Shown piece by piece: positions 3,684 to 48,290 of a DNA stretch of 64,000 nt. This DNA is from Fibrisoma limi BUZ 3 (lineage in GTDB: Bacteria; Bacteroidota; Bacteroidia; Cytophagales; Spirosomataceae): positions 1,184,777 to 1,248,776 of the forward strand of contig NZ_CAIT01000006.1 in assembly GCF_000296815.2 (NCBI RefSeq). Reading direction: 5' to 3'. The notes under the pieces were generated by a model that was given only the letters and a program-made list of their open reading frames with translations, made no database searches and had not been told where the DNA came from. A program made the translations under genes and the position numbers. Position 1 is the stretch's first letter. Every line of letters begins with the position of its first letter.

Positions 3684-3757
3684 TTGCCGTAAGGTATCCG
3701 CCGAAACACCTGTAAACAGTAGGCAATTTTCTTCCCTCTTTTTTAATACAAATCAGT

Positions 3758-4477
3758 ATGCAACAAGTAAAAGCAGCAACCGTCTTCGCGCTGCTCCTGA
3801 TGACACTTTGCTCGTGCGAGAACAGCTTCATCGAGCGGCAGAACCAGACGACCCCGGCCGATAAGGTCATCGCGAATCCGCCTTCGGATGGCCCTGGAGG
3901 GGTCGTTACGAATCCAGGTGGGCAACCTTACCCGACGATTACCAAACAGACGTTCATTCCCGAGTACAGTCTATGGGCGCAAAAGAAAACGCTTACCTGG
4001 CGGATTGAATGGCCGAATTACCCGGTCGGTACCGATCCCAACACGATTCCAACGGTGTTTACGCTATCGAACGGGGCGCTTAACAGTTTTGACTTCCTCA
4101 ACGGCCAACCGGCTTCCACGACGTACAAGACCCATTTCAACCTCTACCATAATGCTAAGTTAGAAAGGTCCAGTGACCTCTGGGACGAACTGACGCACTC
4201 GTTTGGACATGGCGATCAAATGGAATTTGTGTCGTTCAGCAGGTTCACGACTACGATCAAGGGACTTGAGAACATGGTGAAGAACCGGCCAGGATTGTTT
4301 GAGACCTATTGGACAGGCATTACAGAAGATTCTCCGGAGTACCAGCAGGGAGATATATTCCTCATCAAGGTGTCAAATGTAACGGACCCAACGACCCCAA
4401 GCCGCTACGGCGGTATCCGTATCGTCTCCATGATGCCCCGGATCATCGAGGTATATCTGGCCGTACCGAACGACTGA
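3758..4477 (+). CDS. Lipoprotein of unknown function, tandem copy 1
   Basis: Encodes 239 aa with a lipoprotein signal peptide: hydrophobic stretch FALLLMTL and a lipobox ending at Cys20 (LCSC). It is therefore probably anchored in the outer membrane. The mature part has no recognised domain. It is clearly paralogous to the next gene: the block from PYPTIT through TLTWRIEWPNYPVGTDPN to the C-terminal PRIIEVYLAVPN is nearly the same in both, while the 20-60 region and the stretch around residues 145-190 diverge. This pattern of a conserved scaffold with variable segments suits a surface-exposed or partner-binding protein, but the function is unknown. Confidence 0.8.
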   Translation: MQQVKAATVFALLLMTLCSCENSFIERQNQTTPADKVIANPPSDGPGGVVTNPGGQPYPTITKQTFIPEYSLWAQKKTLTWRIEWPNYPVGTDPNTIPTVFTLSNGALNSFDFLNGQPASTTYKTHFNLYHNAKLERSSDLWDELTHSFGHGDQMEFVSFSRFTTTIKGLENMVKNRPGLFETYWTGITEDSPEYQQGDIFLIKVSNVTDPTTPSRYGGIRIVSMMPRIIEVYLAVPND

Positions 4478-4520
4478 TCCGGCCCGGTTGCAGCCCGTAG
4501 TTTATTTTTCTGTCTCACCG

Positions 4521-4559
4521 GGATATAGCTACTGTCCCAGGGTTGGGCAAGTCATATCC
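4521..4559 (+). repeat. Hairpin downstream of lipoprotein copy 1
   Basis: GGATATAGC (4521-4529) can pair with GTCATATCC (4551-4559) with one mismatch and one G-T pair. The same element follows copy 2 at 5432-5470, where the stem is GGGTATAGC/GCTATACCC and pairs perfectly, including an A-T to G-C compensatory change. There is no T tract, so it is not a classical intrinsic terminator. Confidence 0.45.
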
Positions 4560-4680
4560 AATACGGTCTGATCGTCTCCCGCTACGTGTTGGCAATGGCT
4601 TTGTCGCCATAGGCTATTCACTGAATTACCCGTAAGAAATCGACATACCTCTTTTCTTCTTTTTTTCAACAAGTACTACT

Positions 4681-5388
4681 ATGCAACAAGTAACAACAGT
4701 ATCTGTCTTCGCTCTGCTTCTCGTGGCCCTTTGCGCGTGTGAAGAACAGGCAATCACCATTCAGGAGTCGCAAACCAAAGGAACCCGGGGATTTATGTCC
4801 CCCACGCGGGATGACAATGGGGGGCTTACGAACGGTCCGGGTGGGCACCCCTACCCAACGATTACCGAACAGACGTTCATTCCTGAAAACAGGAAGCATG
4901 CCTATCTCAAAACGCTTACCTGGCGGATTGAGTGGCCGAACTACCCGGTGGGTACCGACCCCAACGAGATTCCGACGGTGTTCACACTATCGAACGGGGC
5001 GCTCAACAGTTTTGATTTCCTGAATAGCCAACCGGCTTCCACGACGTATAAAACCAATTTCAGCCTGTATCACAACGACAAAATAGAAATGTCAAAAACG
5101 TTGTGGAGCGAACTGACTCATACGGCCGGAGCTGGTGATCAGATAGAAGCCGTCTGGTTCAACCAGGTTCATTTAATTGATCCAGTCGAGGTCCTTGAGG
5201 AGGCAGCAACAGAGCGACCCATACTGTTCGAAAGCTACTGGGCGTATAACCCCCAGGAGCCTCCCGTCTACCAGCAAGGTGATCTTTTCTTCTTTAAGCT
5301 GTGGGACCAGCATCGCTATGGCGCTATCCGCATCGTCTCCATGTCGCCCCGTATCATCGAGGTGTACTTAGCTGTACCGAATAGCTGA
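4681..5388 (+). CDS. Lipoprotein of unknown function, tandem copy 2
   Basis: Encodes 235 aa with a lipoprotein signal (FALLLVALCAC, Cys20). It is the tandem duplicate of the gene at 3758; long stretches such as TLTWRIEWPNYPVGTDPN and IPTVFTLSNGALNSFDFLN are identical. The duplication covers the upstream region (shared TACGTGTT(A/G)GC and CTTTGT(T/C)GCC(G/A)TA blocks) and about 90 bases downstream with a hairpin. The upstream region of this copy is about 18 bases shorter at the promoter-like position, so the copies may be expressed differently. Function unknown. Confidence 0.8.
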   Translation: MQQVTTVSVFALLLVALCACEEQAITIQESQTKGTRGFMSPTRDDNGGLTNGPGGHPYPTITEQTFIPENRKHAYLKTLTWRIEWPNYPVGTDPNEIPTVFTLSNGALNSFDFLNSQPASTTYKTNFSLYHNDKIEMSKTLWSELTHTAGAGDQIEAVWFNQVHLIDPVEVLEEAATERPILFESYWAYNPQEPPVYQQGDLFFFKLWDQHRYGAIRIVSMSPRIIEVYLAVPNS

Positions 5389-5431
5389 GTCGGCCCGGCC
5401 GCAATCTGTACGTCATCTTTCTAGTTCACCG

Positions 5432-5470
5432 GGGTATAGCCATTGTCCCTGGGTTGGGAAAGCTATACCC
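5432..5470 (+). repeat. Hairpin downstream of lipoprotein copy 2
   Basis: Perfect 9-bp stem GGGTATAGC (5432-5440) and GCTATACCC (5462-5470) around a loop holding TCCCTGGGTTGGG. It is the counterpart of the hairpin at 4521-4559. It sits 40 bases before the next gene, so it could act in a 5' leader as well as at a 3' end. Confidence 0.45.
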
Positions 5471-13023: not shown

Positions 13024-13104
13024 TTGATGCAAGCTCTAACCCTGAAGGCGACGTAGCTCTGTTTGGGTAAGAAGCTCGTTGAGACTACGCCTGGTTGTAT
13101 ATCG

Positions 13105-13190
13105 TTACCCCCAACCCCTGAAGGGGCTTAGCGCTGCTGGGTCAAAAGCCTGAAATTGCGGAGCTAAGCCCCTTCAGGGGTTGGGGGTAA
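13105..13190. repeat. Perfect 28-bp inverted repeat (REP/MITE-like)
   Basis: The arms 13105-13132 and 13163-13190 are exact reverse complements, separated by 30 bases. Each arm holds CCCCAACCCCTGAAGGGGC, itself partly palindromic. It lies between convergent genes. Similar C-rich AACCCCT-AAGGGG intergenic repeats occur in many Bacteroidota genomes as dispersed copies; that statement is from memory. It could serve as a two-way transcription barrier. Confidence 0.75.
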
Positions 13191-13234
13191 TGACACACAA
13201 AAGCAATCCAGAGGTACGTCTTCAGGAAGAGGGA

Positions 13235-24570: not shown

Positions 24571-24579
24571 TACAGTTTA

Positions 24580-24674
24580 CGGTTTACAGTTTTTGGTAAG
24601 TGGTTTCGGTAGCTCGGAAAAATAATCAATCAGTAACCCGGACCGGAACGTCGGCCACCGAAAACTGTAAACCG
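24580..24674. repeat. Inverted repeat upstream of recN
   Basis: CGGTTTACAGTTTTTGG (24580-24596) is the reverse complement of CCGAAAACTGTAAACCG (24658-24674) apart from one position. Further GAAAACTG and CTGAAAACCG words follow up to 24702. The same words occur at 22357-22378 before coaBC, so this is probably a dispersed intergenic repeat. Confidence 0.5.
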
Positions 24675-24760
24675 GCGACTGAAAACTGTCTACTGAAAAC
24701 CGTGAATCGAATGAACCTCCCCCCCGACCGGCGTTGTTACCTGAGTAAGGAGCTACCTGT

Positions 24761-44509: not shown

Positions 44510-47050
44510 ATGAGACACCTGTTCTTTTTTGTTTTTACGATATTTACACTCACTACCGCCTGGGGACAGAGCACAGGCACGATAACCGGCACTATCCGGA
44601 GCGCTTCGGGCGAGACCATGCCGGGCGTAACGATTGTGCTGGACGACTCGCGGCTGGGCACAACCACCGACGAAAGCGGCCGGTATCTGCTACGTAACGT
44701 ACCGTCTGGTCAACACAGCCTGCAAGCCAGTTTTGTGGGCTTCCAGACCTTCCGCCAGACCGTTACGGTCAACGGTACCGAGCGGCTCGACATCACCCTG
44801 ACCGACAATCCGTCTCAACTCAGCGAGGTGATCGTCAGCACCCAGAAGCGGGCCGAATCCATCCTCGACGTACCGATCGCCATTGCGGCCGTTGACGGTA
44901 ACTTTCTGAAGCGCCAGCGAATTCAGGAACTGGACGTACTTTCGAACTACATTCCGGGTTTGCAGGTGCAGCTTCAGAGCCCCAACAACCCTGGCTTTGT
45001 AATCCGGGGCGTAACGAGCGACGACGGCGACTCACGCGCCCAGGCCCGCGTGTCGGTGTTCCAGGACGGGGTCCAGATTTCGCGGTCGCGTGGCGCGGTG
45101 GTGGAGTTGTTCGATATGGAGCGTGTTGAGGTGGCAAAGGGTCCGCAGGGTACGTTGTTCGGTCGGGGGGCGCAGATCGGTGCCGTTCACCTGATTCAAA
45201 ACAAAGCCCGTAATAATCAGTCGGGTGAGGTTCTGCTGTCGTACGGCAATTATAACAGCCTGTACGCCCAGGGATTCATTAATCAGCCGGTCGTGAAAGA
45301 CAAGTTCTTTGTGCGGGTGGCGGGTGTAGCCAGCCAACGCGACGGCTTCATCGACAACATCTCCGGCGGTACCCTCAACGGAAAAGGTACGTACGCCGGT
45401 CGTCTGGCGCTCCGGTACCTGCCCGGTACGCGCTCAACCCTCGATCTGCTGGTCAATTATCAGTACGACGATTACCCCGGTACGTCGTTCAAAAGTGGCC
45501 GATACGCCCCACGGGGCGGCACCACCGATCCGAACACGGCGGCCGATCTGGAGCAGGGTACCAACCTCTTCACGCGCCGGAAAGTGTTTGGCACAACGCT
45601 CCTCTGGAACCAGCAGCTAACCAACCGGCTGACGCTGAACTCTATTTCGGCCTACCGCTGGTTCAACTCGCACGAGAACTTCGACGCCGATGGTACGGCG
45701 GCTCCGGCTCTGTTCCTGGCGGAGTTTGCCAACAGCCGCCAGTGGAGTCAGGAGTTCCGGCTGAATTATCAGAACGAGGGTCGTTTTTCGGGCTTTGCCG
45801 GGGTGAGCGTTTTTTCGGAAGATAACGCGCAGCGCGTTCCTCTGATTACGGACGAACGCAGCCTGCTGGCCCTTTACACAACGGTAATCAACCAATCGGT
45901 GCCGGCGGTACCGGTGATTCCCATCGTGTTCCCCGACGGCTCACCTAACCTGACCCTGACGAGTGCGGTGCTGAACTCCCTGCTGCCGCCCCAGGTACCG
46001 CGCCCGCTGCCGCCCCTGAAAACGCGCCACGAAGAAGCGTATGCCAACTTTGGCAAAAACACAGCCTACGAGATTTTTGCCGATGGTACGTACCAGTTGA
46101 CCTCACGGCTGAGCCTGAGTGCCGGTATTCGGGGATCGTACGAAAACCAGACGGGTGGCTACCAGGCCGATCCGGCTGCCGTACCAAGTCTGATTGGCCT
46201 GCTGGTCAACAATTATCCGAACATTCTGAGCCGCCCGACGCAGGGTCGCTACTCAGTTACGAAAGATTATTTCTCGGCCGTCGGTCGTTTGGTACTGGAC
46301 TATAAAATCGGCAATCAGAAGGCATACGCCAGCATTTCGCGGGGGCGTCGGCCGGGCGTAATTCAGGTATCAGCCATCGATACGACGCTGCTGCGCCCCG
46401 AAATAGTGATGAGCTACGAGATTGGTTATAAAGGCGCTACCCTGGCCAACCGGCTGCAATACGATCTGGCGGCCTATTTCTACGACTGGAATAACTTTCA
46501 GTCCACCTCAATTGTGTTGCAGCAGGGACAACTGCGTGCGTTGTCAACCGATGCCGGGTCGGCCCGCAGCATCGGCGCTGAAATCGGCCTTCGGTACAAC
46601 GTATTCCGGAATTCATTGCTGTACGGCAGCTATTCGTACATCGACGGGAAGTTCAACGACACCGACCGGGAAGGTCGCCAGCAGCAGTTCGCCGGGAACC
46701 GTTTCCGCCTGACCCCGATGAACCAGGTGGCGCTCGGGGCAGACCTGAATTTTCCGGTCCAATCGCGCTTTTCGATCTATTTCCGCCCGAACTACACCTA
46801 CAAGTCAAAGGTGTTTTTCGAGAACACAAACCAGGCTAACCTCGTGCAGGAAGGCTACGGTCTGGTAAACCTCAACGCGGGCGTTGAATTCGGGTCGAAG
46901 CCCCGGGTGATGGTCGGCTTCTACGGCAAGAATCTGCTGGATCAGCAATACATCATCGACGCTGGCAATACCGGAAATGCCTTTGGTATCCCTACGTTTA
47001 TTGCAGGACCTCCGCGGTTTGTCGGCGCTGAGCTGCGAGTGTCGTTTTAA
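44510..47050 (+). CDS. TonB-dependent receptor with carboxypeptidase-regulatory domain
   Basis: Encodes 846 aa. A signal peptide (about 1-20) leads to a CarboxypepD_reg-like domain (GTITGTIRSASGETMPGVTI, about 22-105), a plug (SEVIVSTQKRAESILDVPIA, VEVAKGPQGTLFGRGAQIG, about 110-230) and a 22-strand barrel ending in an aromatic-rich strand (PPRFVGAELRVSF). No SusD partner follows, so it is more like siderophore or small-molecule receptors of the CirA/FecA type. It directly follows the PhoD phosphatase and is followed by the palindrome array. Confidence 0.92.
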   Translation: MRHLFFFVFTIFTLTTAWGQSTGTITGTIRSASGETMPGVTIVLDDSRLGTTTDESGRYLLRNVPSGQHSLQASFVGFQTFRQTVTVNGTERLDITLTDNPSQLSEVIVSTQKRAESILDVPIAIAAVDGNFLKRQRIQELDVLSNYIPGLQVQLQSPNNPGFVIRGVTSDDGDSRAQARVSVFQDGVQISRSRGAVVELFDMERVEVAKGPQGTLFGRGAQIGAVHLIQNKARNNQSGEVLLSYGNYNSLYAQGFINQPVVKDKFFVRVAGVASQRDGFIDNISGGTLNGKGTYAGRLALRYLPGTRSTLDLLVNYQYDDYPGTSFKSGRYAPRGGTTDPNTAADLEQGTNLFTRRKVFGTTLLWNQQLTNRLTLNSISAYRWFNSHENFDADGTAAPALFLAEFANSRQWSQEFRLNYQNEGRFSGFAGVSVFSEDNAQRVPLITDERSLLALYTTVINQSVPAVPVIPIVFPDGSPNLTLTSAVLNSLLPPQVPRPLPPLKTRHEEAYANFGKNTAYEIFADGTYQLTSRLSLSAGIRGSYENQTGGYQADPAAVPSLIGLLVNNYPNILSRPTQGRYSVTKDYFSAVGRLVLDYKIGNQKAYASISRGRRPGVIQVSAIDTTLLRPEIVMSYEIGYKGATLANRLQYDLAAYFYDWNNFQSTSIVLQQGQLRALSTDAGSARSIGAEIGLRYNVFRNSLLYGSYSYIDGKFNDTDREGRQQQFAGNRFRLTPMNQVALGADLNFPVQSRFSIYFRPNYTYKSKVFFENTNQANLVQEGYGLVNLNAGVEFGSKPRVMVGFYGKNLLDQQYIIDAGNTGNAFGIPTFIAGPPRFVGAELRVSF

Positions 47051-47055
47051 GCGGA

Positions 47056-47112
47056 GCGGTCATACGTACCGTCAGACCGAGTTACCCCAGGTCAGACGGT
47101 ACGTATGACCGC
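47056..47112. repeat. Long palindrome 1 of the 47-kb array
   Basis: GCGGTCATACGTACCGTC (47056-47073) is the exact reverse complement of 47095-47112. After one mismatch the stem continues for four pairs (GACC/GGTC), leaving an 11-base loop. It begins 6 bases after the TonB receptor stop. There is no T tract. Confidence 0.8.
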
Positions 47113-47141
47113 TTATCTACCTTTCTGCGTTGTTGAATGTA

Positions 47142-47327
47142 GCGGTTGTAGCAGTCTGGCTGGTCAGATTTAGAAACTCTCCTTACTCTAAAAAGAAGCC
47201 GGTCAGACGTACCGTCAGACCTTTGGTTCGCGTACTCGGTCTGACGGTACGTCTGACCGCATCGGTCTTTACCAGCAAGGCAACTACACAAGGGCACTCG
47301 ACCGAGTTTCCATATGCGGTTGTAGCA
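47142..47327 (+). repeat. Direct repeat GCGGTTGTAGCA within the array
   Basis: The 12-mer GCGGTTGTAGCA occurs at 47142-47153 and again at 47316-47327. Each copy is followed closely by a GGTCAG word. It shows that the array is built from a larger duplicated unit, not only from palindromes. Confidence 0.6.
47200..47259. repeat. Long palindrome 2 of the 47-kb array
   Basis: A perfect 22-bp inverted repeat: arms 47200-47221 and 47238-47259, loop of 16 bases. Each arm is itself nearly palindromic around GTAC (GGTCAGACGTACC...). It is the best conserved unit of the array. Confidence 0.85.
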
Positions 47328-47335
47328 ACCACACA

Positions 47336-47389
47336 GGTCAGGTTGAGAACCTGACCGCACCACGGAAAGGTCTGACGACACGTCTGACC
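47336..47389. repeat. Degenerate unit 3 of the 47-kb array
   Basis: A short perfect hairpin GGTCAGGTT (47336-47344) with AACCTGACC (47348-47356), followed by a unit at 47369-47389 that reads GGTCTGACGACACGTCTGAC plus C, differing from the arm of palindrome 2 at only two positions. Confidence 0.7.
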
Positions 47390-47441
47390 GGCTGACTCCC
47401 CAACTTTCTGTGCCGTCTCACCCATAAGACCAGCTTACCCC

Positions 47442-47496
47442 GGTCAGACGTAACGAAGCAAACTACGCCACTCCTGGTCTCACGGTACGTCGGACC
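47442..47496. repeat. Degenerate unit 4 of the 47-kb array
   Basis: A half unit GGTCAGACGTA at 47442-47452 and a full unit at 47476-47496 (GGTCTCACGGTACGTCGGAC plus C). The last copy ends 15 bases before the stop of the convergent OBAP-family gene. Confidence 0.7.
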
Positions 47497-47510: not shown

Positions 47511-48290
47511 TCAGCGTTGCGGCTTTTCGCCTTTAAAACTGTTCTGATTCACGTGTTCGTGCTTATGATTCGTCAGGGCAGGCAGTTGGATAATTTCTCC
47601 GGTCTCCCACGAATCCGCACCGGGAAGTTTAGGCGGGGCCTGAATATCGGCTCGTTGACTGCGCTTTTCACGCGTGGAAATACCAAACCGTTTGTCGCGG
47701 TCATTTACTAACTCGGGCTTCAGCAGGCCATCGCGTGTAAATCCCATCATCAGCGCCGGATTGCCGAACGGAAGTGCAATGTCCTGATCTGTGTGCCACG
47801 TATGCCAGGTTTTACCGTAGGTCGTTACGATCTGTTCCATCAGCTCGTGCTCCGCTACACCGGGCAGGCCGGGTCCAATCAGCGTACCGCTTTTCACTTC
47901 GTACCGGTGACTGTGCCATAGTTTTTTCTCGTCGGCAGGCAGCGTTTTGAAAAGCGTTTCGGAGATGATGTATTCTACGCCCATGATCTTGGCGCTATCA
48001 CCATTTCCGTCATAAATTACGCACTGGGTCAGGTCCTCGTTCAGTTTAGAACAATAGTGATGTGCTTCCATCTGGCCCTGCAAATGGCCGTTGTAAAAAT
48101 GAAAGCCATCCAGGTAGATGTTCAGCTTACGAACGGGCGATTTATCCTGCAACACATCGGCACCCGCTTCGAGCACCTTCGTTTTGGACGATTTTTCATC
48201 CCCCGGCGACTTAACGTTCGATGATGTATTGCCGCCCCCACAAGCCCAGGTCAGCAGCGCAAGACACATTGCACTTGCCAGCTTTTGCAT
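47511..48290 (-). CDS. OBAP family (DUF1264) lipoprotein
   Basis: Encodes 259 aa with a lipoprotein signal ending LTWAC (Cys17). The conserved core is plain: GQMEAHHYCSKLNEDLTQC, IMGVEYIISETLFKTLP, EKKLWHSHRYEVKSG and YGKTWHTWHTDQDIALPFG. The family was named after plant oil-body-associated proteins and also occurs in bacteria; its activity is unknown. The conserved His and Cys residues suggest a metal or ligand site. It follows the sulfatase gene on the same strand by 58 bases. Confidence 0.85.
   Translation of the reverse strand: MQKLASAMCLALLTWACGGGNTSSNVKSPGDEKSSKTKVLEAGADVLQDKSPVRKLNIYLDGFHFYNGHLQGQMEAHHYCSKLNEDLTQCVIYDGNGDSAKIMGVEYIISETLFKTLPADEKKLWHSHRYEVKSGTLIGPGLPGVAEHELMEQIVTTYGKTWHTWHTDQDIALPFGNPALMMGFTRDGLLKPELVNDRDKRFGISTREKRSQRADIQAPPKLPGADSWETGEIIQLPALTNHKHEHVNQNSFKGEKPQR

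Follow-up and report, generated by a model that had tools for sequence, protein, structure and literature searches.

REP, BIME and REPIN elements are short palindromes that occur in many copies, with an excess of inverted doublets predicted to form hairpins; REPINs were defined by Bertels and Rainey (2011; PMC3116915, cited here, like the two papers below, from part of its text). According to the corresponding sections of Di Nocera 2013 (PMC3733652), most REPs are intergenic and intragenic units are found in several species. Small paired palindromes tagged with GTAG or CGTC lie there mostly in tandem or convergent gaps and sometimes in genes, and the CGTC repeats, among whose hosts Bacteroidetes are named, are described as lacking a dedicated transposase. 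Rickettsia palindromic elements (RPE) are in-frame palindromes in genes likely encoding functional proteins. For Bacteroidetes, the part of PMC6006769 used here gives the TnpAREP subclasses 2.4 and 2.6 with double-foot or atypical REPs, and in subclass 2.4 REPs lie in frame inside the transposase genes. Since REPs, REPINs and intragenic REPs are already known, the family described below is less novel than it looks.

This family was found in Fibrisoma, a genus of the Spirosomataceae (Bacteroidota). Like the REP, BIME and REPIN elements in the consulted part of PMC3116915, its unit is a dispersed short palindrome present in many copies, with inverted doublets in excess, and the arrays are mostly extragenic (29 of 40). 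In contrast to them, no cognate RAYT flanked by the same palindrome was found and a quarter of the arrays are intragenic. With the tagged REPs of PMC3733652 (in part) it shares the pairing of small palindromes, the mostly tandem or convergent placement and some intragenic copies, and with the CGTC repeats also the lack of a dedicated transposase, but the unpaired GTAG or CGTC end is absent from the Fibrisoma unit. RPE resemble it in their in-frame position, whereas here the host belongs to Bacteroidota, the 21-nt sequence is different and the arrays are often multi-unit and differ between sister species. The palindromes of TnpAREP 2.4 and 2.6, as far as the excerpt of PMC6006769 goes, are likewise atypical, with in-frame REPs on record, but those palindromes lie beside or within the transposase gene, which the Fibrisoma unit does not. 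Since it has neither a GTAG/CGTC foot nor a link to a RAYT, the family works like a REP family and stands outside the tagged superfamilies. We consider it likely that the array presented here belongs, as one of its sites, to an orphan REP/REPIN-like family, whose imperfect palindrome of 21–22 nt acts as a DNA hairpin.

The array occupies positions 47055–47496 of the window, the 64,000-nt stretch of the Fibrisoma limi genome that was analysed. It lies in the 460-nt gap of a convergent gene pair, with a TonB-dependent receptor containing Plug and CarboxypepD_reg domains on the left (44510–47050, plus strand) and a DUF1264 protein on the right (47511–48290, minus strand). The gap contains six 21-nt units, a half unit GGTCAGACGTAACG (47442–47455, plus strand) and a palindrome of another kind. 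At most 3 mismatches to GGTCTGACGGTACGTCTGACC are found in the six full units starting at 47058, 47090, 47201, 47238, 47369 and 47476, a count that none of 100 shuffles of the window reached (mean 0.00); the existence of a palindrome array, as claimed in the original prediction, is thus confirmed. Its two long palindromes correspond to two hairpins formed by four of the units. Hairpin 1 (47055–47113) is an inverted pair of units at 47058–47078 (minus) and 47090–47110 (plus). Its 24-nt arms are 96% complementary, with 19 and 4 pairs flanking one mismatch, they enclose an 11-nt loop and they have a rare variant in common (CATACG/CGTATG). Folded as single-stranded DNA, this hairpin reaches -27 kcal/mol (z -12.4). 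Hairpin 2 (47200–47259) is an inverted pair of consensus units at 47201–47221 (minus) and 47238–47258 (plus), with 22-nt arms that are 100% complementary and a 16-nt loop. The remaining two units stand single on the plus strand (47369–47389 and 47476–47496) and differ from the consensus at 2 positions each. The progressive decay that had been read from the array is only roughly right, since the mismatches to GGTCTGACGGTACGTCTGACC run 1, 2, 0, 0, 2, 2 in order.

The direct repeat GCGGTTGTAGCA described as interleaved with the palindromes is present as a linker of repeat family D5 at 47142–47178 and 47316–47352 (plus strand), the two copies being 76% identical over 37 nt. The second copy extends into a different palindrome, perfect over 21 nt (GGTCAGGTTGAGAACCTGACC, 47336–47356), which had not been told apart. 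Mechanical open reading frames of 80–99 aa do cross the array, so that the statement that there is none holds only in the sense that none of them is supported as a gene. The second palindrome was also found elsewhere: written as GGTCAGGTT-NNN-AACCTGACC or TGTCAGGTT-NNN-AACCTGACA, it has 43 matches in the genome with at most 3 mismatches (control 2), and GGTCAGGTT-NNN-AACCTGACC gives 4–21 matches in five other genomes, other genera included (control 1–2).

From the position table, the unit consensus is GGTC-T-GACG-GNA-CGTC-T-GACC, usually followed by G, and the base before it is mostly A or C. A T is present at position 5 in 93% of the units of both species (89 in our genome, 83 in the sister species F. 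montanum), and at position 17 in 94% and 87%, respectively. Since these two T face each other as a conserved T-T mismatch, each unit alone folds into an internal hairpin whose stem has a single mismatch and whose loop is 3 nt long. The two arms of hairpin 2 in the window, by contrast, match fully. The position frequencies reveal no unpaired GTAG or CGTC foot outside the stem; CGTC occurs only within it.

In the genome of 7.63 Mb and 14 contigs, the degenerate unit, with 3 mismatches allowed, is matched 91 times forward and 92 times in reverse, compared with 0 for the reversed control. As the sequence reads almost the same on both strands, these matches represent about 90 units, and 89 distinct ones (at most 4 mismatches) were read in context. 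They are spread over many contigs and form at least 40 arrays, which are those among the stretches fetched (arrays of the last contigs with 1–3 mismatches may be missing from this number). Where neighbouring units are separated by less than 100 nt, 40 of 47 pairs in our genome and 35 of 51 in F. montanum are inverted, with spacers of 10–90 nt. The genome-wide check proposed in the original prediction therefore yields about 90 units, mostly in inverted pairs, and copies are present both in this genome and in F. montanum. Among the three interpretations it named, the right class, small mobile palindromes, was included. The family itself stands, with about 90 copies, mostly inverted pairs and sites that bear units or relics in the two species; the word mobile is to be understood as putative, and the expected link to a RAYT did not hold, as detailed below.

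The distribution of the family is narrow. A strict pattern matches 6 of 222 genomes of the bacterial family and is abundant in only three of them, with 57 matches per strand in our genome, 69 in F. montanum HYT19 and 19 in a genome whose positions coincide with MAG CAN_BIN26 (G033). Three genomes of one further genus have 1–3 matches; the positions in two of these coincide with Emticicia sp. HJF.15 and Cytophagaceae E1_MAG_00056. In a sample of the phylum, our own genome was the only one of 395 with the strict pattern, and in another search set, which also includes our genome, units were present in 5 of 59 genomes. Related 21-mers occur in other records among the matches listed, notably in the Bacteroidetes MAG SZAS-9, and the matches listed from Actinomycetota and other phyla are single and may be due to chance. 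For the family and the array as such, a chance origin was ruled out by the genome counts, the phylum sample and the shuffles. A search of viral_contigs for phage carriage with a somewhat degenerate exact pattern gave 0 matches. Judged by titles and the beginnings of abstracts, the papers listed on repeats or REPs of Spirosoma and Fibrisoma give no account of such palindromes, and of 456 papers whose text matches any of four 9-nt pieces of the unit, the 20 listed look unrelated by the same parts. In MAG SZAS-9 (L217, L191), the 21-mer GGTCAGACGGGACGTCAGACC forms tandem arrays with an exact spacing of 102 nt (five copies) and also of about 126 nt.

A search for a linked RAYT gene had been suggested as a check. 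Two Y1 transposase matches are present in our genome, one of which is a full-length RAYT (C6:748050, locus L102) that also occurs in F. montanum. Its NCBIfam REP_Tyr_transpos scores are 79.8 bits in our genome, just below the cut-off of 80, and 80.4 bits in F. montanum. In both species, inverted pairs of another palindrome, GGCCAAGC-NNNN-GCTTGGCC, lie to either side of the gene (L102:1889–2691; L261:2813–3612). With at most 2 mismatches, this sequence is found 31 times in our genome (control 13) and 22 times in F. montanum (control 22), and since the latter count equals its control, the looser matches are largely due to chance. Exact copies number at least 10 in our genome and at least 7 in F. 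montanum, some of them paired. Some of the arms flanking the RAYT are preceded by TGTC- or CGTC-like bases; if these were a true CGTC-type foot, the palindrome would count as a CGTC-like REP that has a transposase of its own, a combination said to be lacking in the part of PMC3733652 consulted.

It is possible, yet doubtful, that the GGTC-type family is a REP family mobilised in trans by this resident RAYT. The enzyme is available in both species, and the unit hairpins with their mismatched stems resemble the bulged-stem REP substrates described in the part of PMC6006769 consulted. On the other hand, the gene carries the other palindrome on both sides, no GGTC-type unit was detected in the 4.5 and 6 kb around it, nor, with at most 5 mismatches, around either Y1 match (L031, L032, L102, L261), and Y1 transposase genes are present in 50 of the 59 genomes searched (ours included), compared with units in 5 of them. 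With the other palindrome on both sides of the RAYT, the GGTC-type family looks orphaned, or served in trans. Whether a REP family needs its own RAYT can thus be tested directly within one cell, which holds both this apparent orphan and a RAYT with another palindrome.

The in-frame copies within genes are the main point, and they lie beyond what the original prediction considered. Combining a codon-score gene caller with Pfam, 18 of the 40 arrays are in tandem gaps, 10 in convergent ones, 1 in a divergent one and 10 within genes, and 1 is undecided (the array of L020, counted so because only 14 residues lie upstream); by the caller alone, the numbers are 19 tandem, 11 convergent, 7 intragenic, 2 divergent and 1 unclassified. 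Four stretches (L001, L004, L084, L085) are coding by Pfam, though missed by the caller. All 10 intragenic arrays are in frame and leave the reading frame unbroken. Nine of the ten genes have Pfam matches, namely to GGACT, RnpA, alpha-amylase (oligo-1,6-glucosidase), DAO (GlpD-like), S15 peptidase, hydantoinase/oxoprolinase, MutS-like, epimerase and SpoU. For the tenth gene Pfam gives none, but F. montanum has a corresponding frame. Since the units of SpoU and of the tenth gene are in N-terminal extensions with an uncertain start codon, eight cases are secure. The coding units lie mid-gene in both orientations and encode hydrophilic loops such as SDGTSD, GLTERLT, GQTFRQT and RSDVPSD. The minus-strand frame encoding VRRTVR is used by none of the 19 coding units, which come from only ten genes, and its avoidance may reflect selection. 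Beside some units a 15-nt tandem motif, CGGTCTGACGYGACY, encodes TSDRV or RSDAT (near L007, L087 and L118; loci L362, L363 and L377); with at most 2 mismatches it occurs 23 times in our genome and 12 times in F. montanum (control 1 each).

Comparison with homologues locates the loops. Residues 429–476 of the oligo-1,6-glucosidase stand against 2 residues in a solved homologue. RnpA and the MutS-like protein align with their solved homologues on both sides of the loop and skip it (RnpA with an E value of 0.0058 and both sides weak, the MutS-like protein with a weak far side), and for GGACT the search of solved structures yielded a single weak match, which encloses the loop without isolating it. 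Matches in relatives abut, with one residue where GH13 has 47, GGACT 35 and MutS 30. In total, relatives have a short loop or none at all in GH13, GGACT, hydantoinase, epimerase, RnpA and the MutS-like protein; for the latter, one relative has a loop of intermediate length, and the loops that the units replace or extend vary among relatives too. Consequently, six of the eight secure genes are clear insertions, and as in RPE the in-frame copy lies in conserved genes that relatives carry without the loop. This does not apply to GlpD, whose single unit leaves the net length the same as in relatives, and the S15 peptidase differs from relatives by only a few residues. Insertion is therefore not the sole route.

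The gene for RnpA is present once in 37 of the 39 genomes searched, the other two being without a match, and its loop is present in both Fibrisoma species. In an AlphaFold2 model the core of RnpA has pLDDT values mostly above 90, while residues 51–110 average 50–58 and have no secondary structure. Most likely the proteins merely tolerate the intragenic copies as passengers and draw no benefit from them. Rickettsia is the best-known host of in-frame palindromic elements, and the present family extends them to a Bacteroidota genus. Fibrisoma is free-living.

The comparison with F. montanum comprises 29 comparisons from 25 locus pairs, in which one array makes up two rows and which were fetched because both sides carry units. 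In 18 of the 29, the two species have unequal numbers of units. Identity between the species is 1205/1329 (90.7%) in units, 657/907 (72.4%) in spacers, 940/1234 (76.2%) in the nearest 30 nt and 17253/20113 (85.8%) in the far flanks, and these figures, like the codon counts that follow, lean upward since aligners favour unit-to-unit matches. At third codon positions the species agree in 98 of 123 cases in coding units versus 1196 of 1774 in flanking codons (Fisher p 0.005), where units within one gene and arrays within one genome are not independent observations; by gene, the agreement is 48/49 for GGACT, GH13, GlpD and hydantoinase and 50/74 for the other six. Many sites are common to both species in different states, a sharing that is not an unbiased rate, because most stretches of F. 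montanum and G033 were fetched for carrying units. Sites of F. montanum that were fetched by protein, and are thus free of that bias, have one unit with 3 mismatches in the S15 peptidase, two with 2–3 mismatches in the epimerase, two with 2 and 4 mismatches in SpoU and no recognisable unit in the MutS-like gene. GlpD has three units in F. montanum and one in our genome. A clean pair of empty and filled sites with a target-site junction was not found; the best case is the methylmalonyl-CoA mutase gene, which has a unit pair in F. montanum and only a short relic in our genome. Because many sites occur in both sister species but differ in state, the renewal of palindromes and the uptake of protein loops can be watched. 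Together with the coding copies, this two-species record is more interesting than the original prediction had stated.

The paired arms share rare variants more often than expected. Among 36 pairs of our genome, 3 variants outside the loop (in two pairs) are common to both arms versus 0.59 after permutation (p 0.027), and the loop base is shared in 5 versus 1.5 (p 0.005). In 33 pairs of F. montanum the corresponding numbers are 4 versus 0.58 (p 0.0014) and 6 versus 1.4 (p 0.0006). This suggests arm-to-arm copying. For the orphan REP/REPIN-like family we propose that its sites would have been seeded before the two Fibrisoma species split and that single-stranded hairpins formed at the replication fork serve as the presumed substrate. 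Copying of one arm from the other, by template switching or conversion, may keep paired arms alike and could renew the units at a pace that exceeds the decay around them. An enzyme of the HUH/Y1 type, either a cognate since lost or, in trans, the resident RAYT, would probably have seeded new sites, and insertions that break the frame would be removed by selection.

A more radical variant, which we regard as rather unlikely, is that the palindrome manages without its own transposase, persisting and spreading locally because it is self-templating. Template switching during replication would then copy an arm onto the other arm or onto a nearly matching sequence. In this way units would be renewed and multiplied, and existing codons would even be overwritten, as hinted at by GlpD, without classical transposition. 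If this were true, in-frame loops would be fed into housekeeping proteins, including the product of the single RNase P protein gene.

The higher conservation of the units compared with spacers and flanking third codon positions, the near-perfect dyad and the presence of sites on many contigs would also fit an array of operators, in which a sequence-specific protein (regulator or nucleoid protein) binds the 21-nt palindrome and selection for this binding preserves the similarity of the units, codons included. We consider this quite improbable, because the number of units changes between sister species, paired arms share rare variants as copying predicts, the F. montanum copies named above are missing (MutS-like) or carry 2–3 mismatches (S15 peptidase, epimerase), and the strict pattern is absent from 216 of the 222 genomes of the bacterial family. 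Least probable are structured RNA elements or gene-end terminators, since despite the strong hairpins (RNA fold of the array z -9.95) and the many arrays in tandem or convergent gaps, the sole terminator-like match of the scan (47013–47037) is upstream of the array within the receptor gene, no Rfam family passes its gathering threshold in the window, coding regions contain mid-gene copies in both orientations, and the 21-nt sequence itself is conserved, not merely a stem. Independent terminators, which would have refuted the original prediction, are excluded by the number of copies, by their identity in sequence and by their locations in coding regions.

Apart from the array, the window contains other repeats. 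An inverted repeat at 13095–13200 has 43-nt arms that are 88% complementary and 20 nt apart, and another at 24573–24681 has 25-nt arms (CAGTTTACGGTTTACAGTTTTTGGT) that are 84% complementary and 59 nt apart. The stretch at 3736–5470 is duplicated with a period of 911–923 nt, its pieces being 74–86% identical.
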